Below are positions 2,824 through 46,196 of a stretch of 64,000 nt of DNA, piece by piece. The notes below the pieces were generated by a model. It made no database searches and was not told the DNA's origin. It worked only from the letters and a program-made list of their open reading frames with translations. The translations under genes and the position numbers were made by a program. This DNA is from Verrucomicrobiia bacterium (lineage in GTDB: Bacteria > Verrucomicrobiota > Verrucomicrobiia > Palsa-1439). The stretch's first letter is position 1; each line of letters opens with the position of its first letter. The stretch spans positions 62,001 through 126,000 of the forward strand of contig JAJVHY010000021.1 in the NCBI GenBank assembly GCA_022072455.1, given 5' to 3'.

Positions 2824-3977
2824 ACGCACGAAAGTTTCACGACAACAAGCTTGCCAGCTTTGAGGATCTGACCGGGGTTCACGGTGAGTTTTGCCTTGTC
2901 GTCAGTGATCTTCTGCCCGTCAATCGTCACCCCGCCCTGCTGAATCAACCGGCGAATGTCACCCCGGCTTTTGAACTTACCGGTCTTCTCGACCAGTTCG
3001 ACAATCCAGACCTCAGCCGGTACGGCCAACGTCTCAGCCGCGCTATAGTCCTGTTTCGAGAAGCGCTTCTCGAACTCCTCCCGCGACTGGGCGCCGGCCG
3101 CTTCGCCGTGGTATTGCGCGACGAGTTTTTGGGCGAGAGTCTTCTTGGCATCCATCGGGTGACCGGTCGGCTGTGCGTTGAGCAGGAGCCGGTACCACTT
3201 TTCCATGAGGGCGTCGCTGATGCTCATCGTCTTGCCGAAGATGTCGGTCGGGTTGTCGCTGAGGCCGATGTAGTTGCCCTTGCTCTTGGACATTTTCTCA
3301 ACGCCATCGAGGCCCTCGAGAATTGGCAGGATCATCACGCATTGGGGCTCTTGCCCGGCATCCCGCTGCAGATCGCGACCAACAAGATTGTTGAAAAGCT
3401 GATCGCTGCCGCCGAGTTCGACGTCCGCCTTGATGCAAACCGAGTCATGACCCTGCATCAACGGGTAGAGAAATTCGTGGACGCTGATTGGCTCACCGGC
3501 TTTATAGCGTTTCTCGAACGTGTCACGTTCCAGCATTCGCGCGACGCTCATCTGGCTTGCCAACCGGATCACGTCGGCAAACGACATCGTCGCGAGCCAT
3601 TCGCTGTTGTAGTGGATCTCGAGTTTGTCGGGCGACATGTCGAGAATCTTGCCGGCTTGCTGAAAATAAGTCGTGGCGTTTTGCTTGATCTGCTCGGCGT
3701 TGAGCATTGGGCGAGTTTTATTCTGACCGGTCGGGTCGCCGATGAGTGTGGTGTAATCGCCGATGATGAAAATCGCCTTGTGCCCGAGGTCTTGAAACTG
3801 CCGCATCTTGCGGAGGACGACGCTGTGGCCGAGATGCAAATCGGGTGCGGTCGGGTCGGCCCCGAGTTTGATTCGGAGTGGCCGGTTCTTTTCGAGCTTC
3901 TTGAGCAGTTCTTCGCGCGTCACGACGGTCTCGCAACCGGTGACAAGCAACTCAAGTTGTTCAGCTGGTGATTTCAC
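2820..3977 (-). CDS. tyrS: Tyrosyl-tRNA synthetase
   Basis: Charges tRNA-Tyr with tyrosine in the cytoplasm. The class I signatures are present: HLGHS in the HIGH position (in KLGADPTAPDLHLGHS) and KMSKSKG in the KMSKS loop. A C-terminal S4-type RNA-binding domain follows (about the last 70 residues, RGDIRRLIQQGGVTIDGQKI). The KTRPML segment and overall length fit the TyrZ-like branch. The longest open frame begins at a GTG at 3998, but that codon lies inside the terminator hairpin of rpsA. The in-frame GTG at 3977 is therefore the more likely start (385 aa). The downstream outer-membrane protein gene overlaps its stop codon by 4 bp. Confidence 0.95.
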   Translation of the reverse strand: MKSPAEQLELLVTGCETVVTREELLKKLEKNRPLRIKLGADPTAPDLHLGHSVVLRKMRQFQDLGHKAIFIIGDYTTLIGDPTGQNKTRPMLNAEQIKQNATTYFQQAGKILDMSPDKLEIHYNSEWLATMSFADVIRLASQMSVARMLERDTFEKRYKAGEPISVHEFLYPLMQGHDSVCIKADVELGGSDQLFNNLVGRDLQRDAGQEPQCVMILPILEGLDGVEKMSKSKGNYIGLSDNPTDIFGKTMSISDALMEKWYRLLLNAQPTGHPMDAKKTLAQKLVAQYHGEAAGAQSREEFEKRFSKQDYSAAETLAVPAEVWIVELVEKTGKFKSRGDIRRLIQQGGVTIDGQKITDDKAKLTVNPGQILKAGKLVVVKLSCV

Positions 3978-3979
3978 GG

Positions 3980-4011
3980 AAAAACAAAACCCCGACACTT
4001 TCGTGCCGGGG
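3980..4011 (-). terminator. Rho-independent terminator after rpsA
   Basis: On the minus strand, a CCCCGGCAC/GTGTCGGGG stem (one mismatch) with a four-base loop occupies 4011-3990. It is followed immediately by TTTTGTTTTT (3989-3980). It ends the rpsA transcript just before tyrS, so tyrS depends on readthrough or its own promoter. Confidence 0.85.
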
Positions 4012-4040
4012 TTTGTTGTAACGAATCTACTGAGAAAAGC

Positions 4041-5708
4041 CTACTGGTTTTTCTCGTCCTGCGCTTGGTCGAACGCGTGTTCCAAGTCGACGATCGCTTC
4101 GCCGGGCTTGAGGGCGTCTTCGAACATCCGCTTCTCGACTTCGAGCTGCTCCATCGAGTAGTTCGCCGCCTTGATGCTCAGACCGATGCGGCGTTCGGCT
4201 TGGTCGATCTTGATAACGCGGGCGTTGACTTCTTCGCCGACTTTGAGGACGTCCTTCATCTTCTCGATGCGCTCTTCGCGAATCTGGCTGATGTGGACGA
4301 GACCTTCGAGTTTGTCCGGCAGTTCGATGAACGCGCCGAAGCTCGCGAGTTTGACGACTTTGCCCTTCACGAGATCGCCCATCCGGTAGTGCTTGTCGAT
4401 TTCGCGCCACGGGTCGACTTCGAGTTGTTTCAAACCAAGTGACATGCGCTGGTTGGCCGGATCGACTTCGAGCACCATCGCTTCGACAGTCTGCCCCTTC
4501 TTGAGGATATCGGCTGGGTTGGTGACTTTACGCGTCCAAGACATGTCGGAGACATGCACCATTCCGTCGATGCCTTCTTCGACTTCGACGAACGCGCCGA
4601 AGTTGGTGAGGTTGCGAACCTTGCCGGTGACCTTGGTGCCGACCGGATATTTCTTCGGCACATGCGTCCATGGATTGGCTTCGAGTTGGCGGATGCCGAG
4701 GGAAATCTTCTGCTCGTCGCGTTTGATTTCCAACACCATCGCATCAATCTCGTCACCGACTTTGAGCACATCCGAGGCGCGGGCAACCCGCTTGGTCCAG
4801 GACAACTCGCTGACGTGCACCATGCCTTCGATGCCTTCTTCGATCTCCACAAACGCGCCGTAGGGCACGACACTGACAACCTTGCCGTGGACTTTGCTGT
4901 TGATCGGGAACTTGGCCGCGATGTCGTCCCACGGATTGCGGTTCTTTTGCTTGAGGCCGAGGGAAACGCGTTCTTTTTCGCGATCGATTTCGAGGATCAT
5001 GACTTCGATCTTCTCGCCGACCTTGACCATTTCGCTGGGGTGATTGATGCGCCCCCAGCTCATGTCGGTGATGTGCAGCAAACCATCCAACCCATCGAGA
5101 TCGATGAACGCGCCGAAATCGGTGAGGTTCTTGACGACGCCTTCCCGGATTTCGCCGACTTTCATGCCGCCGAGCAATCCCCGGCGTTTCTCGTCACGTT
5201 CGTACTCGATCAATTCCCGGCGCGAGAGCACGATGTTCCGGCGTTCCTGGTTGATCTTGACGACCTTGAATTTGAAAGTTTTGCCAACGTAATCATCCAG
5301 ATTGCGCGGCGGAATCACATCAATCTGCGATGCCGGCAAGAATGCCTCGACGCCGATGTGAACCGTTAAACCGCCCTTGACCTTGCCGCGGACGCGGCCT
5401 TCGATGGTGCCGCCTTCCTGACAGACGGTGACGATGTGATCCCAGTTCTTCTTCTGCTCGGCTTTCTCGTGAGACAACACGACCAAGCCATCTTCATCCT
5501 CGATTTTTTCGAGGAGGACTTCGATCTCGGCGCCGACGGACAACGATTCGGGGTCGTAGAACTCGTGCTTGGGAACCAAGCCTTCGGATTTATAACCGAT
5601 GTCCACGAGGACCTCGTTGGCCCGGACTTCGATGATCGTGCCTTTCACTACGCTTCCCTCGACGAATTGCTTCACGTCCGAGAGATACTGCTCCATGGGG
5701 TTAGCCAT
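4041..5708 (-). CDS. rpsA: 30S ribosomal protein S1
   Basis: Ribosomal protein S1 binds mRNA leaders on the 30S subunit and promotes initiation. The 555-residue product consists of six S1 (OB-fold) repeats in tandem, recognisable by recurring G.V..(L/V)..FGAF(I/V)E..EG(I/L)EG(L/M)VHVS units. Its length is nearly the same as that of the six-domain enterobacterial S1. The start ATG at 5708 is preceded by a good ribosome binding site (GGAG about 11 bases upstream). A consensus-like promoter lies at 5785-5813 and a strong terminator follows at 4011-3980, so it appears to be a monocistronic housekeeping unit. Confidence 0.97.
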   Translation of the reverse strand: MANPMEQYLSDVKQFVEGSVVKGTIIEVRANEVLVDIGYKSEGLVPKHEFYDPESLSVGAEIEVLLEKIEDEDGLVVLSHEKAEQKKNWDHIVTVCQEGGTIEGRVRGKVKGGLTVHIGVEAFLPASQIDVIPPRNLDDYVGKTFKFKVVKINQERRNIVLSRRELIEYERDEKRRGLLGGMKVGEIREGVVKNLTDFGAFIDLDGLDGLLHITDMSWGRINHPSEMVKVGEKIEVMILEIDREKERVSLGLKQKNRNPWDDIAAKFPINSKVHGKVVSVVPYGAFVEIEEGIEGMVHVSELSWTKRVARASDVLKVGDEIDAMVLEIKRDEQKISLGIRQLEANPWTHVPKKYPVGTKVTGKVRNLTNFGAFVEVEEGIDGMVHVSDMSWTRKVTNPADILKKGQTVEAMVLEVDPANQRMSLGLKQLEVDPWREIDKHYRMGDLVKGKVVKLASFGAFIELPDKLEGLVHISQIREERIEKMKDVLKVGEEVNARVIKIDQAERRIGLSIKAANYSMEQLEVEKRMFEDALKPGEAIVDLEHAFDQAQDEKNQ

Positions 5709-5784
5709 TTGGTGGTTTCTTCTCCTGCCTTCGGGGGGCTTACTGCTTTGTCAGCTAGGGCACTCCACTACATAAGGCGGGCGG

Positions 5785-31152: not shown

Positions 31153-31213
31153 TGTAGCCGAAGCGTGAGCTTCGGTCCGAGGCTTACGCCTCGGCTACAG
31201 GCTTGCGGCTACA
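31153..31213. repeat. REP-like palindromic element between radC and the deaminase gene
   Basis: Outer arms TGTAGCCGA (31153-31161) and TCGGCTACA (31191-31199) enclose two perfect 7-bp stems, CCGAAGC/GCTTCGG and CCGAGGC/GCCTCGG, each with a four-base loop. A further GGCTACA copy at 31207-31213 supplies the TAG stop codon of radC on the minus strand. It resembles the element at 2722-2791 in layout but not in sequence. Confidence 0.75.
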
Positions 31214-31895
31214 TCAATCCCAATTCCTTCAAGCTGACGTAATCGCGCTCGCGTCCATAGCCGATGATGACATGATCATGGACGCTGATGTTCAGCAACT
31301 CGCCGGCTTTGACCAACCGCTTCGTGATGGCGATATCCTCACTGCTCGGCGTCGGATCACCGCTGGGGTGATTGTGCGCGAGAATGATGGAAGTGGCCGA
31401 ATGCGTGATCGCTTGTTTGAAGACTTCGCGCGGTTCGACCAGGCTGGCGTTGACGGTCCCAACCGTGACCTGACAGATGCGGATGAGCCGGTTCTTTGTG
31501 TCGAGCAAAAGCACACGGAAGACTTCCCGGTCTTCGGACCGGAATTCCTCGCGCACACAGGCGGCGGCTTGGGCGGGATCATTGATTGGTTCGCGGTGGA
31601 TGGTTTCTTCGGTCATGCGTCGGGCCAACTCAAAGGCGGCTTTTAACTGGATCGCCTTGATGCGGCCGACACCCTTTTTACTCGCAAGCTCGGCTTGCTC
31701 CAGTTTGGCGAGGGCGTTCAGCGAATGACTGTTATCTGCGAGCATTTCGGCGGCAAGCGCGATGGCGGATTTACCCTTCATCCCGGTCCGCAGGAGGATC
31801 GCGATGAGTTCCTCGGTTTTCAGCTTGGCCGCGCCGTGTTTCCAGAGTCGTTCGCGCGGACGCTCGTCTTCGGGCATCTCGTAAATCAAATTCAT
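31209..31895 (-). CDS. radC: RadC-family (JAB/MPN) protein
   Basis: A 228-residue RadC homologue. The N-terminal helix-hairpin-helix-like part (LKTEELIAILLRTG, KGVGRIKAIQLKAAFEL) is followed by a JAB/MPN metal-binding domain with HNHPSGDPTPSSED, the H-x-H-x7-D zinc site, and EVFRVLLLDTKNRL. Despite the old name, a direct repair role is doubtful in this family. The ATG and the upstream amidase stop overlap (ATGA). The stop codon is contributed by a repeat element, so the last residues (KELGLM) could be slightly changed from the ancestral end. Confidence 0.9.
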   Translation of the reverse strand: MNLIYEMPEDERPRERLWKHGAAKLKTEELIAILLRTGMKGKSAIALAAEMLADNSHSLNALAKLEQAELASKKGVGRIKAIQLKAAFELARRMTEETIHREPINDPAQAAACVREEFRSEDREVFRVLLLDTKNRLIRICQVTVGTVNASLVEPREVFKQAITHSATSIILAHNHPSGDPTPSSEDIAITKRLVKAGELLNISVHDHVIIGYGRERDYVSLKELGLM

Positions 31896-32413
31896 TTTTG
31901 CTTCAATCGCTTGTGCAACTCATCCCAAGGGAATTCCTTGCCGGGGCATTCGCTGAATTCGCCGATGACTTCGCCGTGACCGAGCACGTTGTCGGCGGGG
32001 ATTTTGAATTGGTGTTGCAGGCCGCGAATCAAGAGGACGAGCGCGTCGAGTTGTTTCGCCGTGGGCTGGTCGTCGGTGAAGTTGCCGACGAGGCAGATGC
32101 CGATGCCGCGGTCGTTGATGTGGCCTTGCCGGCAGTGGCCGCCATGCATCTGGTTGACCCACCGGTCGCCAACTTCGATGTGGCCATCGGGCCGGTCGGC
32201 GGTGCCGTTGTTGATGACGAAATGATAGGCCAAGCCGTTGATCATGCCGCGGGCGCGATGGCCGGCGTCGAATTCTTCCGCGTTACCGGTGCGGGTGGCG
32301 CTGTGGTGGATGATGATGTATTGCCATTGCCGGGGCGGCGCCGTCGCGGCGTGAAGAAGCGACATTCCGGTCGCGACCAGCAGGACGAGGAAACTATTCT
32401 TCTTCCACCACAT
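31892..32413 (-). CDS. Exported N-acetylmuramoyl-L-alanine amidase (Amidase_2/PGRP)
   Basis: A 173-residue peptidoglycan amidase with an N-terminal signal peptide (FLVLLVATGMSLLHAATA). The zinc fold is shown by IIIHHSATRTG (first His), the Y in LAYHFVI, and VLGHGEV with a downstream SECPGKEFPW (His and Cys ligands). It would cleave the lactyl-peptide bond in the periplasm during wall recycling or remodelling. The first 20 bp overlap the end of hflX, so it is co-transcribed with miaA-hflX. Confidence 0.88.
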   Translation of the reverse strand: MWWKKNSFLVLLVATGMSLLHAATAPPRQWQYIIIHHSATRTGNAEEFDAGHRARGMINGLAYHFVINNGTADRPDGHIEVGDRWVNQMHGGHCRQGHINDRGIGICLVGNFTDDQPTAKQLDALVLLIRGLQHQFKIPADNVLGHGEVIGEFSECPGKEFPWDELHKRLKQK

Positions 32414-33677
32414 AGGGTTTTAATTCGCCGGCCAGGACTTTGGGGATTTGGGCGCGGAGGATGACCTGTGCGCCGTCGTGTTCGCGGGCGGTCACGTAGC
32501 CGGAGCGGTAGACCAACGCAATCGTCGGGGCTTTGTCCGCCGGGATGGATAAGGTGACATCCACGCGCCGGGCGCGAAGTTGGTTGCCGATTTCATCCTG
32601 CAACTGGTCGAGATTGGTGCCGTGGCGGGCGGAAATGGGCACGCTGTGGGGAAACTCGCGCTGGAATTTTTCGAGGATGGATTGATCGTCGCCGAGCCGG
32701 TCGATCTTGTTGAGGGCGACGATGGTCGGTTTGCCGACGCACTCGATTTCTTCAAGGACGACACCGACGGCCTTGATTTGTTCGTGGGCTTGCGGGTGGC
32801 TCACGTCCACAACGTGCAGGAGGAGGTCGGCTTCGGCGGTTTCTTCGAGTGTGGCTTTGAAGGATTCGACGAGATGATGCGGAAGTTTGCGGAGAAAGCC
32901 GACGGTGTCGCTCAGTAAAATATTTTGATTGTTGGGCAACCGGAATTTGCGGGTGGTCGGGTCGAGCGTCGCGAAGAGTTTGTCTTCGGCCAAAACGCCG
33001 GCATTGGTGAGCTTGTTCATGAGCGTGCTCTTGCCGGAGTTGGTGTAGCCGATGATTGAGACCGACGGCCAGTGGAGCTTGGAGCGGCCGCTGCGTTCGA
33101 TGCGCCGATTTTTGCGGACTTCTTCGAGTTGGTCCTGCAGACGCTTGATCTTTTCCTGAACGCGCCGCCGGTCGACTTCGAGCTGCGTTTCGCCGGGGCC
33201 GCGGCAGCCCATGCCGCCGCGTTGGCGGGAAAGGTGCGTCCAGAGGCCGGTGAGGCGCGGGAGCATGTATTCGAGTTGGGCGAGTTCGACCTGGAGTTTG
33301 CCTTCGCGCGTCCGGGCGCGTTGGGCAAAGATGTCGAGGATCAATTCCGTCCGGTCAATGACCTTCACATCCTTGCCGAAGATGTCCATCAGGTTGCGGC
33401 CCTGGGCGGGAGTGAGGTCGTCGTCGAAAATGACGGTGTTGGCGCCGGTTGCGGCGCATTGGGCGGCGATCTCGGCGGCCTTGCCGGTACCGACGAATGT
33501 GGGCGCGCTCGGCGTGTCGCGGCGCTGGGTGACAGAGTCGAGAACGGTGGCACCGGCGGACTCGGCGAGTTCGCGGAGTTCTTCGAGGGAATCTTCGATA
33601 GCCCAGCGGTCGTAGCCCGGCCGTTCTAATCCAATGAGCAGGGCGTGCTCGGGCGGCGGCGCCTGCGTGTCGTACAT
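32394..33677 (-). CDS. hflX: GTPase HflX
   Basis: A ribosome-associated GTPase that splits or rescues stalled 70S ribosomes. The N-terminal nucleotide-binding subdomain (TFVGTGKAAEIA, VIFDDDLTPAQGRNL) is followed by GGMGCRGPGETQLE, the HflX hallmark. The G domain then has GYTNSGKST (G1), DTVGFLRKLPHHLVESF (G3) and NKIDRL (G4). The ATG at 33677 is two bases after the miaA stop and gives the canonical N-terminus; the open frame continues upstream into miaA. Operon miaA-hflX is the same pairing as in many bacteria. Confidence 0.95.
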   Translation of the reverse strand: MYDTQAPPPEHALLIGLERPGYDRWAIEDSLEELRELAESAGATVLDSVTQRRDTPSAPTFVGTGKAAEIAAQCAATGANTVIFDDDLTPAQGRNLMDIFGKDVKVIDRTELILDIFAQRARTREGKLQVELAQLEYMLPRLTGLWTHLSRQRGGMGCRGPGETQLEVDRRRVQEKIKRLQDQLEEVRKNRRIERSGRSKLHWPSVSIIGYTNSGKSTLMNKLTNAGVLAEDKLFATLDPTTRKFRLPNNQNILLSDTVGFLRKLPHHLVESFKATLEETAEADLLLHVVDVSHPQAHEQIKAVGVVLEEIECVGKPTIVALNKIDRLGDDQSILEKFQREFPHSVPISARHGTNLDQLQDEIGNQLRARRVDVTLSIPADKAPTIALVYRSGYVTAREHDGAQVILRAQIPKVLAGELKPYVVEEE

Positions 33678-33679
33678 CT

Positions 33680-34522
33680 TCAGTGCGATGGCAGTTTCTC
33701 CAAAATTTTTGCAGCGGTCGCGGCGGGCGCTTCGTCCACTGCGACCGTGAGCCACTGTAGTCCCGGCTCGCGGCGAAACCAAGTCATTTGTCGTTTGGCG
33801 AGTTGCCGGGTGCGGATTTTGATGAGGGCGACGGCTTCCGGCAAGGAGAGCTTCCCGCGCAGGTGGGCGACGAGTTCCCGGTAGCCGGCGGCTTGCATGG
33901 CGACGGGGTTTTGTTCGATCCCCTTCGCCATCAATTGCCGGACTTCATCGAGCCAACCGGCACGCATTTGTTCTTCGATGCGTTGCTCGATGCGCTGGAT
34001 GAGGTCTTGCCGGTCCCGGTGGAGGCCGAAGATCAAGCCGCCGGAACTGGTCTGGGTCTGGAAATCCCGGATGGACTTACCGGTGGTGTGGAAGACTTCG
34101 AGCGCGCGGACGAGACGGCGCGGGTTGTGCCGGTCAATTGTCGCGGCGGCTTTGGGATCGAGGCGTTCGAGTTCCGCAAACAGCGCGGCCGCCGGCAATG
34201 CTTCGAGCCGAGTGCGAAGTGCGGTGTCGCGCACCGGGCCGTCAAAGATTCCTTGCCGGAGGGCGCGGATGTAGAGGCCGGTGCCGCCGCAAACGACGGC
34301 GCCGGGAAGCAACGGCGTGGCGAGCTCGACGAAGCGTTTGACGTCGAAGGCTTCTGTGATGTCGCAGATGTCCACGAGTTGGGCGGCTTTGTCTTTGGCG
34401 GTGCCGATGTCCATACCGCGGTAGACTTGCATGGAGTCGGCAGAGATGACCGGCCGGCCGAGCGCGTGGGCGACGGCGGTTTTGCCGGAGGCAGTGGGGC
34501 CGACGAGGAACACCGGGGTCAT
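33680..34522 (-). CDS. miaA: tRNA dimethylallyltransferase
   Basis: Transfers a dimethylallyl group to A37 of tRNAs reading UNN codons. The P-loop GPTASGKT is at residue 8, followed by ISADSMQVYRGMDIGTAK, GGTGLYIRAL and MTWFRREPGLQWL, all diagnostic. The 280-residue length is slightly below the average of 300. It is the first gene of the miaA-hflX-amidase-radC block and lies divergent from the response regulator with 61 bp between start codons. Confidence 0.95.
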   Translation of the reverse strand: MTPVFLVGPTASGKTAVAHALGRPVISADSMQVYRGMDIGTAKDKAAQLVDICDITEAFDVKRFVELATPLLPGAVVCGGTGLYIRALRQGIFDGPVRDTALRTRLEALPAAALFAELERLDPKAAATIDRHNPRRLVRALEVFHTTGKSIRDFQTQTSSGGLIFGLHRDRQDLIQRIEQRIEEQMRAGWLDEVRQLMAKGIEQNPVAMQAAGYRELVAHLRGKLSLPEAVALIKIRTRQLAKRQMTWFRREPGLQWLTVAVDEAPAATAAKILEKLPSH

Positions 34523-34583
34523 GGCGGCGACGATAGTGAAAAGAGCTTTTCCCGGCGAGGGGAATCAGTTAGTGTCCGCGCTC

Positions 34584-35042
34584 ATGAGTGAGGCCAAGCC
34601 GACGAAGATTCTCGTGGTCGATGATGAACCGTCCATCCGGGAGTTTCTCCATCAGATCCTGACCGACGAAGGGCATACAGTATTCACCGCCAGTGACGGC
34701 CGGGAGGCGTTGCTGATGGCGGTGAAAGAGCAGCCCGATCTGATCTTGCTCGATATCGCGATGCCGAACATGGACGGAATGGAGACGTGCCGGCAGTTGC
34801 GGGAACGACCGACGACGCGGCACATCCGTATCATCATGTTGACGGCGTACGATTCGCGGGACCGGCTTGAAGAAAGTATCGTGGCGGGCGCGGATGATTT
34901 TCTGGGCAAGCCGGTCAATCTCGCGGAATTGCAGGTGCGGGTGGGTTCGATGTTGAAGGTGAAGGATATGCAGGACGAAGTTGACCGGCTCGAAGCGTAC
35001 ATCAAATCCATGAACGAGCTGCGGGAGCAGGCGAAGCACTGA
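34584..35042 (+). CDS. Single-domain response regulator (CheY-like receiver)
   Basis: A 152-residue protein with a complete receiver domain: acidic pair VDDEPS, phospho-acceptor Asp in LILLDIAMPNMDG (near residue 57), T in MLTAYD, and K in LGKPVNL. About 30 residues of coiled coil follow (MQDEVDRLEAYIKSMNELREQ). There is no DNA-binding or enzymatic output domain and no neighbouring histidine kinase. It probably works by protein-protein contact or as a phosphorelay intermediate. Confidence 0.9.
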   Translation: MSEAKPTKILVVDDEPSIREFLHQILTDEGHTVFTASDGREALLMAVKEQPDLILLDIAMPNMDGMETCRQLRERPTTRHIRIIMLTAYDSRDRLEESIVAGADDFLGKPVNLAELQVRVGSMLKVKDMQDEVDRLEAYIKSMNELREQAKH

Positions 35043-35045
35043 CGG

Positions 35046-35324
35046 CTACTTGCCGGTGGGCACCCAGAGGGCGGTTAGCTTGCGTTCCCAGTTGTCGAGT
35101 TGATACTTCACGTCTCGGACGCCACCCAATTTCCGAATGCGCTGATCCATCTCGCGGAGAACCGTGTCGGACAAATCCTGATGGGAGGCGGTCATGCGTT
35201 GGATGGTCCCGACCAAATAGACCACACCCCCGGTCGTGCGGACTTGCACGCGGGTGATGTCCACCCAGCAACTCGTGAGAATCCGGCGCACTGCGACATT
35301 CGTCAGTTTGTCTTCGACCGACAT
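35046..35324 (-). CDS. Small BON-like domain protein
   Basis: A 92-residue protein with NVAVRRILTSCWVDI, VRTTGGVVYLVGTIQ and a final helix-strand unit (MDQRIRKLGGVRDVKYQLDNW). This alternation of helix, two strands, helix and strand, plus the V.L.G motif, resembles a single BON domain, usually a membrane- or ligand-associated module. There is no signal peptide. It is convergent with the response regulator, 3 bp apart. Confidence 0.5.
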   Translation of the reverse strand: MSVEDKLTNVAVRRILTSCWVDITRVQVRTTGGVVYLVGTIQRMTASHQDLSDTVLREMDQRIRKLGGVRDVKYQLDNWERKLTALWVPTGK

Positions 35325-35411
35325 GGTGGCGGAATGTAGCGATGCGCTGAGCCTGATGCAAGCCCTGACGAATGCCGGTCGATTGTTGCGAGTTCGTCAC
35401 AGTCTTTGAGC

Positions 35412-35440
35412 TTGGCACGATCGGGGTAACGTGCTATGAA
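35412..35440 (+). promoter_or_regulatory. Sigma70-like promoter of the secreted-protein cluster
   Basis: TTGGCA (35412-35417) and TATGAA (35435-35440) are separated by 17 bp, 40 bases before the ATG at 35481. It probably drives the run of secreted proteins from 35481 to 43151. Confidence 0.6.
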
Positions 35441-35480
35441 GCCATAGCAGTGGGTCGCGGGTTATCTACTTTGGAGAAAC

Positions 35481-37133
35481 ATGGTGGGCGCAGCTATTCT
35501 GCGGGGCATTCTGAGGTACTGGGGATATGGACTCGGTTACTTGGTCATCTTCCTGACACCCACTCCCGCGTTGGTGTGCGCGCAAAACCTGCAGGATCCC
35601 ACTCTGGGCGTGGTCGAAGCGGCCAGCGGGTTCAGCTTGCCGATTGGGATGGAATTCCTCGCGACCAACGATTTTCTCGTCATCGAAAAAAACAGCGGCC
35701 AAGTGCGCCGGGTCATTGCCGGTGTCATTCAACCGCAACCGGCCCTGGTGCTGGACGTCGACACGGCGAACGAGCGCGGCTTGCTCGGCATTGTGAAACA
35801 TCCCGGCTTCGCGACCAACAACTTCATCTACCTCTGCCACACACCCAGCGCCGGCAACTGTGTGTGCATCCAGCGCTACACTTGGAACGGCAGCGCGTTG
35901 GTGGATCCGACCGACATTTTTTCGTTCCCCACATTTACCGGGATCAGCAACCATCAGGGCGGCGTGATGACGTTTGGCCCGGATGGAAAACTCTATGCCG
36001 TAACCGGCGACCACGGGCAATTCGGGCCGCTCCAAAACCAACCGACCGGCCCTCTGGACGATACCAGCGTCATCGTCCGCCTCAACGATGATGGTTCAAT
36101 CCCCGCAGACAATCCGCTCGCAGTGGCCGCCGGCGACGCCGTGAAATATTACGCCTATGGGATCCGCAACTCATTCGGTATGGCGTTCGATCCCTTGTCG
36201 GGCGAGCTGTGGAATACGGAAAACGGCGCGCAGGCTTATGACGAAATCAATCGCGTTTTACCGGGCTTCAACAGCGGCTGGCGGGAGATCATGGGGCCGG
36301 CAGCGCGCAATCCCAGCGGAACTAACAACCTCGTCAACCTTACCGGCGGCCAATATGCCGACCCGGTTTTTTCCTGGCTCGAAACCGTCGCGCCGACCGG
36401 CCTTGTTTTTCTAAATTCCACCGCGTTGGGCAGCGCGTATGAAAACGATTTGTTCGTCGGCGATTTCAACAACGGTTACCTCTATCACTTCGACCTCAAC
36501 GCCCAGCGCGACGCGCTGGCATTGACCGGCGGCTTGAGCGATACCGTCGCGGATAACGCCAACGAACTCGACAGCGTGGTCCTCGGCACCGGCTTCGACG
36601 GCATCAGCAGTCTCAAAGTCGGACCGGACGGCAAACTCTACGTCGTCTCACTTTTCCAAGGGAAAATTTATGCTGTCACCGAGGTGTCAGGCAGCGACTT
36701 GGCCATCACCCGCCTCAAGGCCCCCAAGAAAATCAAACTACCGGTCCGCCCCAAGACCGTGACGGTGACTCTGCAAAACCGCGGCCCGGCAAACGTGACT
36801 TTCTCGAACTTGTCCACGCTCACGAACCTCATCCAGATCCAAATCGAATCTCTCGGCGACTGCCCGACCCCAACCGCGACCATCGTCCCGCCGAAAAAAC
36901 TCCCCGTCACGCTGGCGCCCGAGAGGAAAATCACACTTCGGTATACCGTCACGTTTGACTGCGCCAATGACGCCGGCAGTGGCTCCGGCCGGGAAGATTA
37001 CCGGTTCACCGCGCGCATAAATCCGTACGACGATCCCAATTCCGCAAACAACGAGTGTCCCCGCCCGCCGGTCAGCGTGGACAAAGGCTGCAACAAGGGC
37101 CGCCTCGTGCTCACCGATGTTCACCAACAATGA
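35481..37133 (+). CDS. Exported sugar dehydrogenase-like beta-propeller with shared C-terminal domain
   Basis: A 550-residue secreted protein. Residues about 40-395 follow the PQQ-dependent glucose/sorbosone dehydrogenase propeller pattern: LPIGMEFLATNDFLVIEK, ERGLLGIVKHPGF, TFGPDGKLYAVTGDHG, YGIRNSFGMAFDP, and SSLKVGPDGKLYVVS. Residues 406-550 are a separate domain (DLAITRLKAPKK, DCANDAGSG, EDYRFTARIN, NECPRPP, DKGCNKG) that recurs in two neighbouring proteins. The signal peptide follows a slightly long N-terminus (YLVIFLTPTPALVCAQ). GGAG precedes the ATG. A soluble aldose oxidation role is possible but the calcium/PQQ ligands were not verified. Confidence 0.78.
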   Translation: MVGAAILRGILRYWGYGLGYLVIFLTPTPALVCAQNLQDPTLGVVEAASGFSLPIGMEFLATNDFLVIEKNSGQVRRVIAGVIQPQPALVLDVDTANERGLLGIVKHPGFATNNFIYLCHTPSAGNCVCIQRYTWNGSALVDPTDIFSFPTFTGISNHQGGVMTFGPDGKLYAVTGDHGQFGPLQNQPTGPLDDTSVIVRLNDDGSIPADNPLAVAAGDAVKYYAYGIRNSFGMAFDPLSGELWNTENGAQAYDEINRVLPGFNSGWREIMGPAARNPSGTNNLVNLTGGQYADPVFSWLETVAPTGLVFLNSTALGSAYENDLFVGDFNNGYLYHFDLNAQRDALALTGGLSDTVADNANELDSVVLGTGFDGISSLKVGPDGKLYVVSLFQGKIYAVTEVSGSDLAITRLKAPKKIKLPVRPKTVTVTLQNRGPANVTFSNLSTLTNLIQIQIESLGDCPTPTATIVPPKKLPVTLAPERKITLRYTVTFDCANDAGSGSGREDYRFTARINPYDDPNSANNECPRPPVSVDKGCNKGRLVLTDVHQQ

Positions 37134-37146
37134 AAGGTCCGCACCC

Positions 37147-38895
37147 ATGAAAACCACCCCACTGCTCCGTTGCCTGATCCTTGGAACTTTGACTGCCGGC
37201 CTGAGCGTCTTACCGGCACAGGCGCAGTTTCAACTCCTCCACGCATTCGGTGGCAGTCCGAACGACGGCGCGACACCTTGGTGGGGCGCGTCGCTTGTGG
37301 CGACCGGCACGACGTTGTACGGCGTGACTGCCAATGGCGGCACGAGCAGCAACGGTGTGGTGTTCAAGGTCAGCACCACCGGCACGGGCTACCAGGTGCT
37401 CCACCACTTCAACGGGTATGACCTGTTCTTAAACCCGACCGGATCGAAGAACGATGGCTCAGTGGCGTACGGCACGCCCTTGCTCGATGCCGGAGTGTTG
37501 TACGGGATGACGGCGTTGGGCGGCAGCAACGGGTTCGGCACAGTCTGGCGGATGAACACCGATGGCAGCGCGTTTCAAGTGCTGCATCACTTCGGCAGCA
37601 GCCTCGACGGCTATCAGCCCGTGGGCGGACTGGTGAAAGATGGTTCGACGCTCTACGGCCTGACTTCTAACGGTGGCAGCAACTCTGCGATTGGCGTTTT
37701 GTTCAAGATCGACACCAGCGGATCTGGCTACCAGATCCTGCGGCATTTCGACGTGGCCAACAGCGGCCTGTTGACGCCCTATGGCACGCCCCTGCTTGCC
37801 GGGGGAAGATTGTATGGCATGACGCGTCTCGGCGGCACCGGCAGCCAAGGTGGCATCTGGGCCGTGGATGCGGATGGCAGCAACTATCAGGTGTTGCACA
37901 ACTTTACCGGCACGAGCACGGACGGCTCGCAGCCCAACGGCTCACTCATCATCGACGGCACCACGCTGTACGGCATGGCCCAAAATGGCGGGGCGAACAA
38001 TGCCGGGATCATTTTCCAGATTCAATCCAACGGCACCGGCTTTCAGATCATGCACAACTTCGCGCTGACCGAGGCGCATTTTCCTCAAGGCGATCTGATT
38101 CGGGACGGCACGACGCTGTACGGTTTCACCAAAGGCGGCGTGACGAACATCTTCAGCTCCAACCTCGGCGGCGGCGCGATCATCCGGATCAACACCGACG
38201 GCAGCAACTACAAACAACTGTATACGTTCCTGTTCCCGATCACCGATCCAGACGGGCAATGGCCGTGGGGCACGCCGCTGAAGATCGGCACAAAACTATT
38301 CGGCATCACCCAACTGGGCGGCACGTTGCTGGGCAATAACCAAGGGACGGTGTTCGCTTTCGACCTGACCGGGAATGGCGGCGGAGGTGGTGGTGGCGGT
38401 GGCGGCGAAACCGACCCGATCTTTGACTTGGCCGTCGTCAGCCTCAAGGCCCCGAAGAAAGTCACGCTGCAAGATGGTAAAGAACCCAAACCCGGTAAGC
38501 TCAGCATCGCCGTCCAAAACACCGGCAATCAAACCCTCACGATTCCCAATCTCACGGCGTTGGAGAATCTGCTGAATCTCCTCATCACCTCGCGCGGTGG
38601 ATGTCCGACACCCGAGCTGGTCTTGTTGTCGCCAACGACATTTCCGGTCCTGCTCGCTCCCAAGAAGAAATTGACGGTGGCTGGGTTGCTGCCCATTGAT
38701 TGCGCCAACGATCCGCTGGCTTCATCCAAAACGGCCGACCATGCGGATTACGAATACAGCGTCGAGCTCAATTTAACTGCCATCGGTGCCACCGATGCCA
38801 ACTCCGCCAACAACACTTGCCCACGGGGGGCCAGTGGAGCTGACAAGGGGTGTAACAAAGGGTTACCGGCCCGCACCGATGTCATTGTGAAATAA
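37147..38895 (+). CDS. Secreted GloVer-type tandem-repeat protein with shared C-terminal domain
   Basis: A 582-residue exported protein (signal LRCLILGTLTAGLSVLPAQA). Residues 28-410 consist of about nine repeats of around 40 residues with the pattern GTTLYGxTxxGG....G.(I/V)F.(I/V)...G..(Y/F)..LH.F, matching the TIGR03803 'GloVer' tandem repeat, presumably a beta-propeller. A run of ten glycines then leads to residues 427-582, which repeat the C-terminal domain of the previous gene (DLAVVSLKAPKKVTL, DCANDPLAS, DYEYSVELN, NTCPRGA, DKGCNKG). It is 13 bp after its neighbour and probably in the same transcript. Confidence 0.8.
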   Translation: MKTTPLLRCLILGTLTAGLSVLPAQAQFQLLHAFGGSPNDGATPWWGASLVATGTTLYGVTANGGTSSNGVVFKVSTTGTGYQVLHHFNGYDLFLNPTGSKNDGSVAYGTPLLDAGVLYGMTALGGSNGFGTVWRMNTDGSAFQVLHHFGSSLDGYQPVGGLVKDGSTLYGLTSNGGSNSAIGVLFKIDTSGSGYQILRHFDVANSGLLTPYGTPLLAGGRLYGMTRLGGTGSQGGIWAVDADGSNYQVLHNFTGTSTDGSQPNGSLIIDGTTLYGMAQNGGANNAGIIFQIQSNGTGFQIMHNFALTEAHFPQGDLIRDGTTLYGFTKGGVTNIFSSNLGGGAIIRINTDGSNYKQLYTFLFPITDPDGQWPWGTPLKIGTKLFGITQLGGTLLGNNQGTVFAFDLTGNGGGGGGGGGGETDPIFDLAVVSLKAPKKVTLQDGKEPKPGKLSIAVQNTGNQTLTIPNLTALENLLNLLITSRGGCPTPELVLLSPTTFPVLLAPKKKLTVAGLLPIDCANDPLASSKTADHADYEYSVELNLTAIGATDANSANNTCPRGASGADKGCNKGLPARTDVIVK

Positions 38896-38922
38896 ATGAA
38901 ACCCACAACCACTCGAGGAACT

Positions 38923-40356
38923 ATGCAACCGACACCACTCATTCTCAGCGCCCTGTTTCTTACGCTGGCCAGCCTGGCTTCCGCCGTACCGGTGCGCCAG
39001 ATTCCCGGCCTCACTGCCGTGACGTATCATGAACGAACCGGCGGCTCAGCGCCCGTCGCGCAAATGTTTCTGATTGACGATCCCCGGATGACCACCCGGC
39101 GGGCGGATCCGCTCAGCATCAACAACAATGATTTTGCCGGCGTGCCGGACAAGGAGTTCTACGACGTGTTCTACTCGGACGTTGATGGCACTCCGAACGC
39201 GGATGGCGAGTTTCTGACCATCGAAGGTGTGTACAGCTCCACCGCACCGGCCGGCGGCGCGTTGAACCTCGCGGAGATCACCCTGAACTTTAGCGGCGGC
39301 GCGACGGAATACGGCCTCTACGTCGCCAGCTTCCTCGCGCTCGGCGACAATGCCGTCCCCACCACCGTGTTTAACTGCATTGACGGCGACCTCCAAACCC
39401 ACACCACCATGGGCAACACGGTCGGCCAAAACCAACGGATGCGCATCACCCTCGGCTTTCAATCTTCGTCAGGCGAGCCGGTCGGCGCCAACCTCGCCAT
39501 CAGCAAGAAAGCCAGCTTCAAAGCCGTCTCGGTCAGTTCCAACTTCACCTACACCATCACCGTCGTGAACCTCTGGAACGTCACCAACACCAACGTCATC
39601 GTCACCGACTTTTTGCCGGCCAAGGTGGACTTGCTGGCGTTCACCTCCAGCACTGGCACTTGCACAAACATTGACGGAATCGTGACCTGTGAGTTGGGCG
39701 ATCTCCCGCCGCGCGCCATGGCGACCATCACCCTCGACGTGGCCCCGGCCCGCATCGGCATCGTCACCAATACCGTCAGCGCCGTGGCCGACCAATCCGA
39801 AGCCGTGGCCACCGACAACGAATCCATCTTCGTTACCGAGCTGGCGCAGACGCTCCCGCCCGACCTGACGGCGGCCATCGATGTTGATTTCGCCGATTGC
39901 GCCGCCGGTAAGAAAGGCGTGGACTGTCCGCTCATCGCGCAACTCCTGCTCCTGAACAACGGCATCATCTACGGCGATGCCACCGTCGAACTCCTCAAAT
40001 CCTGCGCCACCAACACCGTGCCACCCAAGTGCAAGATCAAGGGCATCCTCACTCTCAACGAACTGGATCTCACGGGCTTGGCGGATCACACTGTGGCGTT
40101 TTATCTCTCGACCGACACCGCGTTCGATGCCGCGGACTCGTTGCTGGCGATTGTGCCGTTGAACAAGGCCATCAAAGCCTTTTTCAAAGGCAAGCCGGTC
40201 AAGGTCAGCTTCAAGCTACCCAAGGGCGTGGATCTCACCGATCGCCACATCCTCGCCGTCGTGGACGCCCCCGGCAAAACCGGCCTCAATGCCGTCGACG
40301 AATCCAACGAAACCAACAACACCGCCGCCAGCCCGGCGATTCCGGCGATTCCCTAA
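38923..40356 (+). CDS. Secreted protein with DUF11-like and CARDB-like regions
   Basis: A 477-residue exported protein with a clear signal peptide (LILSALFLTLASLASA). The middle contains a DUF11-type Ig-like repeat (ANLAISKKASFKAVSVSSNF, TNTNVIVTDFLPAKVDLLAF, NTVSAVADQSEAVATDNES). The last third has a CARDB-like pattern (DHTVAFYLSTDTAFDAADS, ILAVVDAPGKTGLNAVDESN) ending in ETNNTAASP. The ATG at 38923 is favoured because GAGG lies 6 bases upstream; an in-frame ATG directly after the previous stop (38896) is the alternative. It lacks the shared C-terminal domain of its neighbours. Likely a surface-exposed structural protein. Confidence 0.7.
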   Translation: MQPTPLILSALFLTLASLASAVPVRQIPGLTAVTYHERTGGSAPVAQMFLIDDPRMTTRRADPLSINNNDFAGVPDKEFYDVFYSDVDGTPNADGEFLTIEGVYSSTAPAGGALNLAEITLNFSGGATEYGLYVASFLALGDNAVPTTVFNCIDGDLQTHTTMGNTVGQNQRMRITLGFQSSSGEPVGANLAISKKASFKAVSVSSNFTYTITVVNLWNVTNTNVIVTDFLPAKVDLLAFTSSTGTCTNIDGIVTCELGDLPPRAMATITLDVAPARIGIVTNTVSAVADQSEAVATDNESIFVTELAQTLPPDLTAAIDVDFADCAAGKKGVDCPLIAQLLLLNNGIIYGDATVELLKSCATNTVPPKCKIKGILTLNELDLTGLADHTVAFYLSTDTAFDAADSLLAIVPLNKAIKAFFKGKPVKVSFKLPKGVDLTDRHILAVVDAPGKTGLNAVDESNETNNTAASPAIPAIP

Positions 40357-40364
40357 CCTGCCGT

Positions 40365-43151
40365 ATGAAAACGTGCTTCAAACTCATCGCGCTCGGCCTG
40401 CTGGCCGGGCTGGCTGAAGCCGGCCATCTGCCGCTGAGTTTTGAAGCCCGCGACGGTGCCTTCATCACCCATGGGCTGCGCCAACCACTCGCGCTAACCC
40501 CGACCGGCATCACATTTCTGGAACTGGTCGGCGCCAACCGGTCGGCGGAGGGCACCGGCCTAAATCGCTTGGCGGGTGTAGCCAATTACTATCTCGGCAA
40601 TGACCCGGCCCAATGGCGAGTCGGCGTGCCGCTCTATGAACGCGTCGAGTTTCGCGGTGTGTATCCGGGCGTGGACGTCGTGTACTACGGCACCGACCAG
40701 CACCTCGAACACGATTTCATCGTCGCGCCGGGCGCGGACCCGAATCAGATTCGGCTGCGCGCCGGCAAGTTTGCTCTCACACCCGACGGTGAACTCACCA
40801 CCGGCGAGTTTCGCTTGCGCCGGCCCGTCATCTTCCAGGGCAACCGTCAGATCGCCGGTGGCTATTGCCTCGACACCGACGGCACCGCGGGATTTGTCGT
40901 GGGCGAGTACGACCCGAGCCGGGAACTGGTAATTGACCCGGTCTTGGTGTTCTCAACATACCTCGGTGGCACCGGCACGGAGATCGGCCAATCCATCGCT
41001 GTCCACACGAACGGGCAAGTCTACGTGACCGGCTACACGGAATCGGCGAACTTTCCGTCGGCCACCGGTTCGCTCGGCGGCACCCGCGACGCGTATGTGG
41101 CGAAGTTGAATGCAGCCGGCACCGCGCTGTTGTTCGCCACCTACATCGGCGGCACCGGAATTGAACAAGGCCACGGCCTCGCAGTGGATAAGGACGGCAA
41201 CGCCTACATCGGCGGCGTGACGCAATCGGCGGATTTTCCGACGACGGTTGGCGCGTTCGACACGACGTACGGTGGCCCGTCGGACGCGTTCGTGGTGAAG
41301 TTGTCGGCCACCGGCGCGCTGGTGTACTCGACGTACCTCGGCGGCAGCGGCGACGAGAACAACGTCTTCGCTCTCGGCGGCGTCGCCGTCAACACCGCCG
41401 GCAACGCCTTTGTCGCCGGCATCACCACCTCGGCCGACTTCCCTACGACCAGCGGCGCGCACAAACAGTTCTTGAGCGGGCCGAGCGATGCGTTTGTAGT
41501 CAAACTCGACGCCACCGGCACCGGTTTGGTGTACGGCACGTACTTGGGCGGCAGTTCGTACGACGGAGCATATGGAGTCGCCATTGATGCAACGGAGGCC
41601 GCGTATGTGGCCGGTCTGACCCGGTCGAGCAACTTTCCCACGACTGCCGGGGCTTTTGATCGGACGTTTGGGGGCGGGTTGTGTTTCAACAATTCGGTGC
41701 CGTGCGCGGACGGCTTTGTTGCCAAACTCAATCCCGCCGGCAGCGCACTGGTCTACTCGACGTATCTCGGCGGCGCGCGCGAGGACAACAGTTACGCCAT
41801 TGCCGCGGACATAAAAGGCAACGCGTATGTCACCGGCGACACGACTTCGACAAACTTCCCGGTCTCGCCCGGCGCGTTTAGCAGTGTCAACACCGGTTTG
41901 GGCGATGCGTTCGTCACGAAGCTCAATAGCAACGGCACGGCAGCGGTGTTCTCGACGTATCTCGGCGGCTCGTCCGGGTTGGATGGCGGTTACGCCATCG
42001 CAGTGGACGCGCACCAAAGCGCCTACGTGGCCGGCGAAGGACGCGCTTTCACGTTCCCGGTCACCCCCGACGCGGTGAATACCAATTCGCCCGGTGGTTT
42101 CGTCGCCAAACTGAACGTCGGCGGCACAGACTTGGAATATTCAACCTTCCTCGGCGACGGCGCGTATGGCATCGCCCTCGACAGTGCGGCCAACATCTAC
42201 GTCACCGGTTACACCGACGCGACGAATTTCCCCACGACCGGCGGCGCCATCAGCACCACCCGCAGCGGATTCCGCGACAGTTTCGTCACCAAACTCAGCA
42301 ACATTCCCAGCCCACCCCAAGCCGATTTACATCTCACAAAAACCGGCCCCGCCGGCGACGCCCCAATCAGCGCCCCGATCGCCTACACCCTGCTCGTCAC
42401 CAACCTCGGCCCCGACCAAGCAACCACTGTCGTACTAACCGATACCTTGCCGGCGACCACGGCGTTTCTCTCCGCGGTACCGAGCCAAGGAACTTGTCAA
42501 CTCCAAGGCAATCTTCTGACCTGCCAACTCGGCACCCTCACCGCCGCCGCCACGGTCACGCTGCAATTGAGCGCCAGCACCGATGGGCGGCTGACCAATA
42601 CCGCCAGCGTCACCGCCACGCAACCCGACCCCGATCCGTCGAACAACTCCGCCGTCGTCATCACCCAAGTCGTCCGGCCAATCCACGATCTCGCAATCAC
42701 CGCGTTCAAAGCTCCGAAAAAAGTCACCCTCAAAGCCGGAGTCCTACCCAAACCCGACAAGATGAAACTCACCGTTCGCAATGCCGGCCCGAACACCGAA
42801 ACCATCACGACGCTCGCCATGCTCACCAACCTGGTGAAGATCACCATCGAATCCCTCGGCGGCTGCCCCGTCCCCGGGCCGGTCTTGACGCCGCCGAAGC
42901 TGTTGCCGGTCGTGCTCAGTCCCGGCAAGTCGCTGAAACTCTCCTACACCGTCACACTCGACTGCGCCAACGATGCTGCGGCCGGCCTCGGCCACGAAGA
43001 TTACCGATTCACGGCGCAGGTCAATCACGCGGTCATTGACGGCAACCCCGATACCACGCCCACCAACGACACCTGCCCCCGCCCCGCCAGCGGCACCGAC
43101 AAGGGGTGCGCCAAGGGGTTGGAACTATTGACCGACGTGATCGGGCCATGA
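40365..43151 (+). CDS. Secreted SBBP-repeat propeller protein with DUF11 and shared C-terminal domain
   Basis: A 928-residue exported protein. After the signal peptide comes an N-terminal region (FEARDGAFITHG, WRVGVPLYERVEFRGVYPGV, LEHDFIVAPGADPNQI) typical of the module preceding SBBP repeats. Then come about eight repeats of YSTYLGGSG....A.AVD..GNAYV.G.T.S.DFPTT.GA (about residues 190-650). A DUF11-like repeat follows (ADLHLTKTGPAGDAPISAPI), and finally residues 775-928 carry the domain shared with the proteins at 35481 and 37147 (DLAITAFKAPKKVTL, DCANDAAAG, EDYRFTAQVN, DTCPRPA, DKGCAKG). The ATG at 40365 is chosen; the longer open frame overlaps the upstream gene in another frame. Confidence 0.82.
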   Translation: MKTCFKLIALGLLAGLAEAGHLPLSFEARDGAFITHGLRQPLALTPTGITFLELVGANRSAEGTGLNRLAGVANYYLGNDPAQWRVGVPLYERVEFRGVYPGVDVVYYGTDQHLEHDFIVAPGADPNQIRLRAGKFALTPDGELTTGEFRLRRPVIFQGNRQIAGGYCLDTDGTAGFVVGEYDPSRELVIDPVLVFSTYLGGTGTEIGQSIAVHTNGQVYVTGYTESANFPSATGSLGGTRDAYVAKLNAAGTALLFATYIGGTGIEQGHGLAVDKDGNAYIGGVTQSADFPTTVGAFDTTYGGPSDAFVVKLSATGALVYSTYLGGSGDENNVFALGGVAVNTAGNAFVAGITTSADFPTTSGAHKQFLSGPSDAFVVKLDATGTGLVYGTYLGGSSYDGAYGVAIDATEAAYVAGLTRSSNFPTTAGAFDRTFGGGLCFNNSVPCADGFVAKLNPAGSALVYSTYLGGAREDNSYAIAADIKGNAYVTGDTTSTNFPVSPGAFSSVNTGLGDAFVTKLNSNGTAAVFSTYLGGSSGLDGGYAIAVDAHQSAYVAGEGRAFTFPVTPDAVNTNSPGGFVAKLNVGGTDLEYSTFLGDGAYGIALDSAANIYVTGYTDATNFPTTGGAISTTRSGFRDSFVTKLSNIPSPPQADLHLTKTGPAGDAPISAPIAYTLLVTNLGPDQATTVVLTDTLPATTAFLSAVPSQGTCQLQGNLLTCQLGTLTAAATVTLQLSASTDGRLTNTASVTATQPDPDPSNNSAVVITQVVRPIHDLAITAFKAPKKVTLKAGVLPKPDKMKLTVRNAGPNTETITTLAMLTNLVKITIESLGGCPVPGPVLTPPKLLPVVLSPGKSLKLSYTVTLDCANDAAAGLGHEDYRFTAQVNHAVIDGNPDTTPTNDTCPRPASGTDKGCAKGLELLTDVIGP

Positions 43152-44585: not shown

Positions 44586-46196
44586 ATGATTCGTCCCACA
44601 TTTTTCCTTGTTCTCCTTGCTGCGGCATTACCGGCGCAGGCGGTGGAACTCCTCCTCGTCACCAACACCATCTCGATGCCGGTCGGCACCACGTTTCAAA
44701 TGCCGTTGACCGGCTCCAACAACATCGCCGGGCCGCTCCAATTCAAAGTCGAATCCGTCAGTTGGCGCGCCGTCAGAGCCGCGCTTGCACCGGCAACGAA
44801 TCGCAGCCTTCAACTTGACGTTACCGGCGTGGACTCCAACGACCAGCCCTTCGCCGGCACGATCGTCCTCCAACTTTTTGAAGATCTCGTCCCCCGGACC
44901 ACTGCCCGCATCATTGAACTCGTCCAAAGCAACTTCTACAACGGCCTGATCTTTCACCGCGTTGCGCCGGATCTCGTCTGCCAGACCGGGGCCGACAGTT
45001 CGGGCGTTACCCTCGACGACGAGTACGAACGCACCCTCTTCTACAATGGCTTCGGCCAACTCGGCCTCGCGAAAACGGCCGGTTTTTTTACCGGGCTCAT
45101 CGACGACTCCGGTGACTCGCAAATTTTCATTACCGACGTTGACCTCAGCGTCGGCTCCACGAACAAGCCCTCGCCCCGGTCATTCGATTTCAAGTATCCG
45201 TTGTTCGGCCAGTTGACCCGCGGCTTTGATATCGTGGACAAACTCATGAACACGCCGGTCGACGGCGAATCACCGGTCAACTCCAATATCGTCCAACAAG
45301 CCACGATTATCTCCGACCCGCAAGCCGCCGTCCTCCGCCTGACCGCCTTGCCGGGGTTCACAGGTGAAGTCACCGTGGTCGTCAGCGCCGCGAACGCCAA
45401 CAAGCAAAAGGACACCCAAACTCTCCGCGTCCGCGTCATCGCCAACCCCATCAACACCCCGCCGTTCCTCGGCCCGATACCGAGCGCGTTCGTCGTCACG
45501 CAAGCGATGGCCGCGTCTTTCATCCTCACGACCACCGATGTCGAAAATAACAACGTGAGCCTGCAACTGCTTGACGACGACACCCAAGACTTCCCCGATG
45601 GATTGGATGCCGCCGTTGATCCACTGACCAGCCGGCTCTGGTTGCTGCCGGAATTGGCGGTGACCGGCACCGTCAATCTGGTGCTCGGCGTCACCGATGG
45701 ACTCCACCCCTACGACACTCAGAAATTTTCGCTGACTGTCGCGCCGTCGAGCGACCTCCCGACGTTCGACATCCTCCCCAAATCCGGCAGCCTAAGTGTC
45801 TCCCCCCAACCACTCGGCTCGCGCGTCAAACTTTCCGGTCGCCTCGTCTTCACCAACAACTCCGACCGCGTCTTCACCAGCCATGACTACGTTCTGCTCT
45901 CCGTTGGCGACCTGGCCGATCCATTGACCATGACCATCCTCCCGAATGCGATTGGCCGTTCTCACAAAGGCGCCGTCGTCCGCATCAAAACCATTCCCGG
46001 CGCAATTCCAACTTTCGCCGGCACGTTCGACAGCGTCAAAGGCACCTTCAAAATCGCCCTCAGCAACTTCAACTTCCCCGGCCCGCAGACAAACCCGGTC
46101 ATTCAAGTCAGCTTCACCGTCGGCAACGACTACGGTTCCAACATCACCACTTGGACTCAATCCAAACCCGGCACCTTCACCTTCCCTAAACCTTAG
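44586..46196 (+). CDS. Exported cyclophilin-type peptidyl-prolyl isomerase with Ig-like regions
   Basis: A 536-residue secreted protein (signal TFFLVLLAAALPAQA). Residues about 85-250 form a cyclophilin-like domain: IVLQLFEDLVPRTTARIIEL, FYNGLIFHRVAPDLVCQTGAD, FGQLTRGFDIVDKLMNTPV. The usual QGGD is changed to QTGAD, so activity may be reduced. Residues about 290-390 look like a cadherin/Ig-like repeat (NTPPFLGPIPSAFVVTQAM, VTGTVNLVLGVTDGLHPYDT). The last 140 residues are a strand-rich C-terminal domain (ending KPGTFTFPKP). A periplasmic or surface folding role is suggested. Confidence 0.75.
   Translation: MIRPTFFLVLLAAALPAQAVELLLVTNTISMPVGTTFQMPLTGSNNIAGPLQFKVESVSWRAVRAALAPATNRSLQLDVTGVDSNDQPFAGTIVLQLFEDLVPRTTARIIELVQSNFYNGLIFHRVAPDLVCQTGADSSGVTLDDEYERTLFYNGFGQLGLAKTAGFFTGLIDDSGDSQIFITDVDLSVGSTNKPSPRSFDFKYPLFGQLTRGFDIVDKLMNTPVDGESPVNSNIVQQATIISDPQAAVLRLTALPGFTGEVTVVVSAANANKQKDTQTLRVRVIANPINTPPFLGPIPSAFVVTQAMAASFILTTTDVENNNVSLQLLDDDTQDFPDGLDAAVDPLTSRLWLLPELAVTGTVNLVLGVTDGLHPYDTQKFSLTVAPSSDLPTFDILPKSGSLSVSPQPLGSRVKLSGRLVFTNNSDRVFTSHDYVLLSVGDLADPLTMTILPNAIGRSHKGAVVRIKTIPGAIPTFAGTFDSVKGTFKIALSNFNFPGPQTNPVIQVSFTVGNDYGSNITTWTQSKPGTFTFPKP

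Follow-up and report, generated by a model that had tools for sequence, protein, structure and literature searches.

Proteins with unrelated cargo and signal-peptide-like N-termini, encoded in a 64,000-nucleotide contig stretch from a Verrucomicrobiia bacterium (hereafter the window), end in copies of a single domain that falls outside the catalogued families and was found, with a total of 11 copies, in four genomes of one GTDB family. The most likely reading, to which we give a probability of about 0.5, is that this domain is a terminal attachment module that would act at the cell surface or in the extracellular matrix after export, as one of several interchangeable end-modules. A passive cap comes next in our ordering, and a sorting signal last.

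Three copies of one domain in a gene cluster

The window copies lie on the forward strand at positions 36696–37130 (145 aa, at the end of a GSDH protein, with cysteines at domain positions 56, 89, 121 and 132), 38425–38892 (156 aa, at the end of a GloVer protein and preceded by a poly-Gly linker, with cysteines at 60, 93, 132 and 143) and 42687–43148 (154 aa, immediately following a DUF11 domain). These are the C-terminal locations proposed by an earlier, sequence-only reading, and the motifs it listed (DLA, KAPKK, DCAND, DY, CPR and DKGC) are common to all three. Mutual identity is 40–50%, and similarity ends sharply at the DLA boundary. Domain alignment scores of 289–376 are far above the shuffled maximum of 54–63, and the similarity is therefore real and far beyond chance. 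The 150 residues upstream of the domain score 23–32, and whole-cargo alignments are no better than shuffles save for one marginal pair (103 versus 99). That the cargo is truly unrelated, as had also been proposed, follows from separate matches to GSDH (PF07995), GloVer (TIGR03803) and DUF7948, SBBP and DUF11 models.

Four genes for apparently secreted proteins follow one another on the forward strand with intergenic gaps of 13, 0 and 8 nt and probably form an operon; a consensus scan of the cluster found no promoter above chance. Gene 1 (35481–37133, 550 aa) encodes a GSDH propeller with the domain (PF07995, E = 2.5e-55). Gene 2 (37147–38895) encodes a GloVer repeat protein with the domain (TIGR03803, E = 2.9e-61); its open reading frame spans 37117–38895 and its start is probably at 37147, 13 nt past gene 1. 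Gene 3 (38896–40356), which abuts gene 2, encodes a DUF11 protein with a different C-terminal region of ~166 residues, and gene 4 (40365–43151), 8 nt further on, a DUF7948 (E = 1e-38), SBBP (E = 1e-42) and DUF11 (E = 2.7e-27) protein with the domain. The C-terminal region of gene 3 (39853–40356) gave a sub-threshold CARDB match (E = 0.13), and no other occurrence of it was found in the GTDB family; it is an apparent orphan end-domain inside a domain-bearing cluster.

The position of the cluster is fixed on the left by a radC-ampD-hflX-miaA block on the reverse strand (31209–34522), genes that we take to be such by sequence recognition without a model scan. Recognized in the same way, a presumed response-regulator gene also lies on the left and a presumed YebC-like gene on the right. 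The latter is followed, at 44586–46196, by a gene for a peptidyl-prolyl isomerase of the cyclophilin type (PF00160), whose start resembles a signal peptide and whose C-terminal half is long; this protein might assist the folding of exported proteins.

Distribution of the domain

The sequence-only reading had left room for a domain restricted to this cluster, and it is not so restricted: the window genome has a fourth copy at another place (G000:C8:19400-19882), and profile searches recovered seven more in three relatives from the same GTDB family (three in G391, two in G396 and two in G397). These 11 copies, at two to four per genome, are a small sample that includes ortholog pairs. Profile searches found no copy in the other family members, the same-genus genome G388 included, and no credible further copy in 384 class and 388 phylum genomes sampled, where the best nine candidates per genome were scored. 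Matches in G001 and G048, partial, interrupted by stops and no stronger than weak at E = 1e-3 to 7e-3, were rejected as chance.

Two narrow pattern scans of genome contigs gave no match in the first case and only G396 and G397 contigs in the second; absence from such scans is weak evidence, given the narrowness of the patterns and the failure of the first scan to pick up members recovered by the second. No match to the domain turned up in plasmids (tblastn), in viral contigs (scans) or in the PDB (by sequence). Since the narrow pattern scans and the plasmid and viral-contig searches were all that reached beyond Verrucomicrobiota, a wider range is possible. Similar sequences may occur in other phyla, a possibility to which we gave no weight. 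In the sampled searches, with other phyla poorly sampled, the domain was confined to one GTDB family. A tree of the 11 copies was poorly resolved, grouping only L057 with L058 and, moderately, window copies 1 and 3, and we therefore claim no order of duplications.

Predicted fold and relation to known families

Across the family the domain measures ~145–183 residues. Cysteines 1 and 2 are present in all 11 copies and cysteines 3 and 4 in 10; the exception, L063, lacks both together with the intervening loop while keeping the last strand. Their joint loss suggests pairing of 1 with 2 and 3 with 4, giving two probable disulfides per domain, predicted in copy 3 to link residues 60 with 93 and 130 with 141, and L063 further suggests that the loop between cysteines 3 and 4 is dispensable. 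The cysteine loops and a CANDPLATTK segment, both outside predicted strands, are among the conserved parts, as is the last strand (TDVxVK).

With all 11 sequences as input, AlphaFold2 modelled copy 3 at pLDDT 93.8 and pTM 0.86 (83.8 and 0.79 with four sequences only). Foldseek ranks Ig-like domains highest, MSP/PapD-like ones among them (best E = 7e-4, TM mostly 0.3–0.5), and the predicted fold is an Ig-like beta-sandwich without a close solved relative. Against viral models, Foldseek returned generic Ig-like, tail or enzyme-associated domains only, none below E = 1e-3.

No Pfam or NCBIfam model scored above its cut-off on the domain (Pfam, 0 of 11 copies), and the expectation that it would match no known Pfam Ig-like family was thus borne out; searches of the open literature turned up no account of one like it. 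The nearest case is a DUF11 match of copy 1, alone among the 11, which covers nearly the whole model at 18.3 bits against a cut-off of 24.6 (E = 0.003). Like DUF11 (PF01345) and CARDB (PF07705), the domain is an extracellular Ig-like module, often adjoining DUF11, that opens with D-L-x-(V/I) followed by a V-x-V-x-x-x-N-x-G strand. Unlike DUF11, which takes internal positions in these proteins, it is always terminal, and it has four conserved cysteines. When profiles were compared, four local DUF11 domains matched it only weakly (probability 8.5% over 34 columns), and an Ig-like fold is weak evidence of DUF11 or CARDB membership because such features are generic to the fold. We read the domain as a new family of extracellular Ig-like domains in bacteria, close to DUF11 and CARDB in layout rather than a demonstrated member of either.

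Strict terminal position on varied cargo

All 11 copies extend to the stop codon, the last predicted strand being followed by a few residues at most, and all 11 precursors have, by inspection, a signal-peptide-like N-terminus, from which export would follow. It had been predicted that the domain would always be C-terminal on signal-peptide proteins and that a common terminal module would be carried by diverse exported cargo, and both hold across the set. At least eight cargo architectures are represented: GSDH, GloVer, GloVer with a Big_1-like module, SBBP, SBBP with DUF11, beta-helix with HYR, propeller with BACON and HYR, an unknown region with HYR and DUF11, and one unclassified. Where DUF11, HYR, BACON or Big_1 modules occur in these proteins, they are always internal to the domain.

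In three ortholog or homolog pairs, identity was 74% in the domain versus 83% in the cargo, 47% versus 44%, and 36% versus 44%, and by this measure the domain does not appear clearly better conserved than its cargo. Lysine makes up 7.3% of the domain versus 1.4% of the cargo, is higher in the domain in all 11 proteins (Wilcoxon p = 0.001) and occurs in clusters. BACON and LASVEVP end-modules are equally lysine-rich, and electrostatic binding through lysines was dropped as a specific mechanism for this reason.

GloVer proteins with other ends

GloVer repeat matches number 72–97 per domain-bearing relative versus five in the window genome, and one GloVer protein of these relatives (L059) carries the domain. 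Among the matches listed, 33 other GloVer proteins (L087–L119, from G391, G396 and G397) have at least four other end-modules or none, and neither the domain nor PEP-CTERM is found on any of them. Their ends, among the matches listed, are YQLQ...FYR in 16 proteins, GxLLQ in five (six by eye with L103), LASVEVP in two and BACON in two, the remainder having no end-module or an unclassified end. As these 33 proteins end otherwise, GloVer cargo would seem to have no general need of the domain. The commonest end, a module of ~85 residues with the pattern YQLQ...NW...FYRFxITP, stands at the end of roughly half the GloVer proteins among the matches listed, and at least three other ends recur. The arrangement resembles the choice-of-anchor idea known for GloVer (TIGR03803), in that one repeat cargo has alternative C-terminal ends within single genomes, but here the ends are soluble-looking modules or nothing rather than recognized anchors.

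Shared loci with different cargo

Two genera share the domain beside miaA, on different cargo. In G391 and G397 the gene adjoining miaA encodes a beta-helix and HYR protein with the domain, and the corresponding flank of miaA in the window is occupied by the GSDH, GloVer, DUF11 and SBBP genes. G396, a congener of G391 and G397, has no domain gene at this site. Cargo replacement in an ancestral domain gene and independent insertion at a favoured site both fit this pattern. The radC-ampD-hflX-miaA side (window 31209–43151; L058 3154–9667; L057 363–6942) is a possible exchange hot spot for surface proteins.

A looser case is the atpB side, where a domain gene (L056) adjoins atpB in the window genome and another (L060) lies ~8 kb from atpB in G396, with an N-terminal cargo unlike that of L056. 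Separately, in G397 two genes in the vicinity of a domain gene (L061 2218–5150) are 74–80% identical to a window pair at 2823–5750, ~30 kb from the cluster; they make up a second block that is conserved close to such a gene.

Attachment, capping or sorting

The proposal that the domain sorts or anchors its carriers stands in part: a strictly C-terminal module on diverse, putatively exported cargo is what we observe, while a dedicated sorting role found no support. No transporter or protease emerged whose occurrence follows the domain; exosortase, the one candidate compared, does not track it, being present in 10 of the 11 family genomes whether the domain is present or absent. The flanks of domain genes hold no recurrent partner gene, common neighbours being mostly housekeeping genes that reflect conserved location. 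The 33 GloVer proteins that end otherwise, among the matches listed, also count against such a role. We infer that the domain is not an export signal, and it is more likely to be one interchangeable end-module among several than to mark proteins for a novel secretion machinery.

In the attachment reading, Sec-exported proteins of a narrow group of Verrucomicrobiota would carry the domain as their final module. Cassette-like recombination would have placed it on different N-terminal cargos, or it would have stayed while cargos were exchanged ahead of it. After export it would bind the cell surface or extracellular matrix and hold beta-propeller or beta-helix cargo there. Against this reading, a strict C-terminal position is equally expected of a sorting signal.

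A tentative second explanation, which we consider rather less probable, is that the domain is a shuffled Ig-like module that stabilizes or spaces the ends of long repeat proteins without a specific ligand or sorting role. Stacked Ig-like modules (Big_1, HYR and DUF11) do precede it in several proteins, copy 1 weakly resembles DUF11 at a Pfam score below cut-off, and there is no sign that constraint on the domain is stronger than on the cargo. However, in gene 1, gene 2 and L062 the domain follows a propeller directly, with no other Ig module present, a plain cap need not be last in 11 of 11 cases, and the cysteine loops and CANDPLATTK, outside the predicted strands, are among the conserved parts.

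We think it unlikely that the domain is a novel C-terminal signal for sorting to, or anchoring in, the outer membrane, functioning like the C-terminal domain (CTD) of T9SS substrates with a dedicated lineage machine and possibly cleaved. Its strict terminal position, varied exported cargo and several copies per genome would suit such a role, as would a conserved last strand and a predicted folded Ig-like sandwich, which recalls the seven-strand Ig fold of the RgpB CTD of T9SS (PMC4804311). Like the T9SS CTD (Por_Secre_tail, PF18962), it is an Ig-like sandwich, here by prediction, that forms the very end of diverse proteins with signal peptides, but there is no sequence match, and the domain is about twice as long, with two probable disulfides. 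The T9SS CTD is absent among the 50 Foldseek matches listed, and no PF18962 tail protein was matched in the 11 family genomes; PF14349 (SprA/Sov) matched neither the 11 nor the control genomes, which leaves that result uninformative. The likeness to PEP-CTERM/exosortase, first met in Verrucomicrobium spinosum (PMC1569441), lies in a multi-copy C-terminal homology region on varied secreted proteins in genomes that have exosortase; unlike PEP-CTERM, the domain has no PEP motif, transmembrane helix or basic tail, and in the last 40 residues of its proteins the maximum 17-residue hydropathy is ≤1.24, with no hydrophobic tail. The earlier judgement that the domain matches neither kind of tail was correct. 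Further points against a sorting signal are that there are only two to four copies per genome, no recurrent partner at domain loci, an evolution rate about equal to that of the cargo, a same-genus genome (G388) that lacks the domain, and GloVer proteins, 33 among the matches listed, with other modules or none at their ends. More doubtful still is that it is the recognition signal of an unknown CTD-dependent outer-membrane secretion or anchoring system of soil Verrucomicrobiota, analogous to T9SS yet unrelated, with cargo swapped at fixed loci.

Were the domain a sorting signal after all, a secretion route so far unknown would come to light in the phylum Verrucomicrobiota. As an uncatalogued family with a confidently predicted fold, a strict C-terminal position and a clear alignment, it is ready for a Pfam or NCBIfam entry. 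The miaA-side locus, for its part, points to how uncultured soil Verrucomicrobiota may rebuild their surface proteins from modules.
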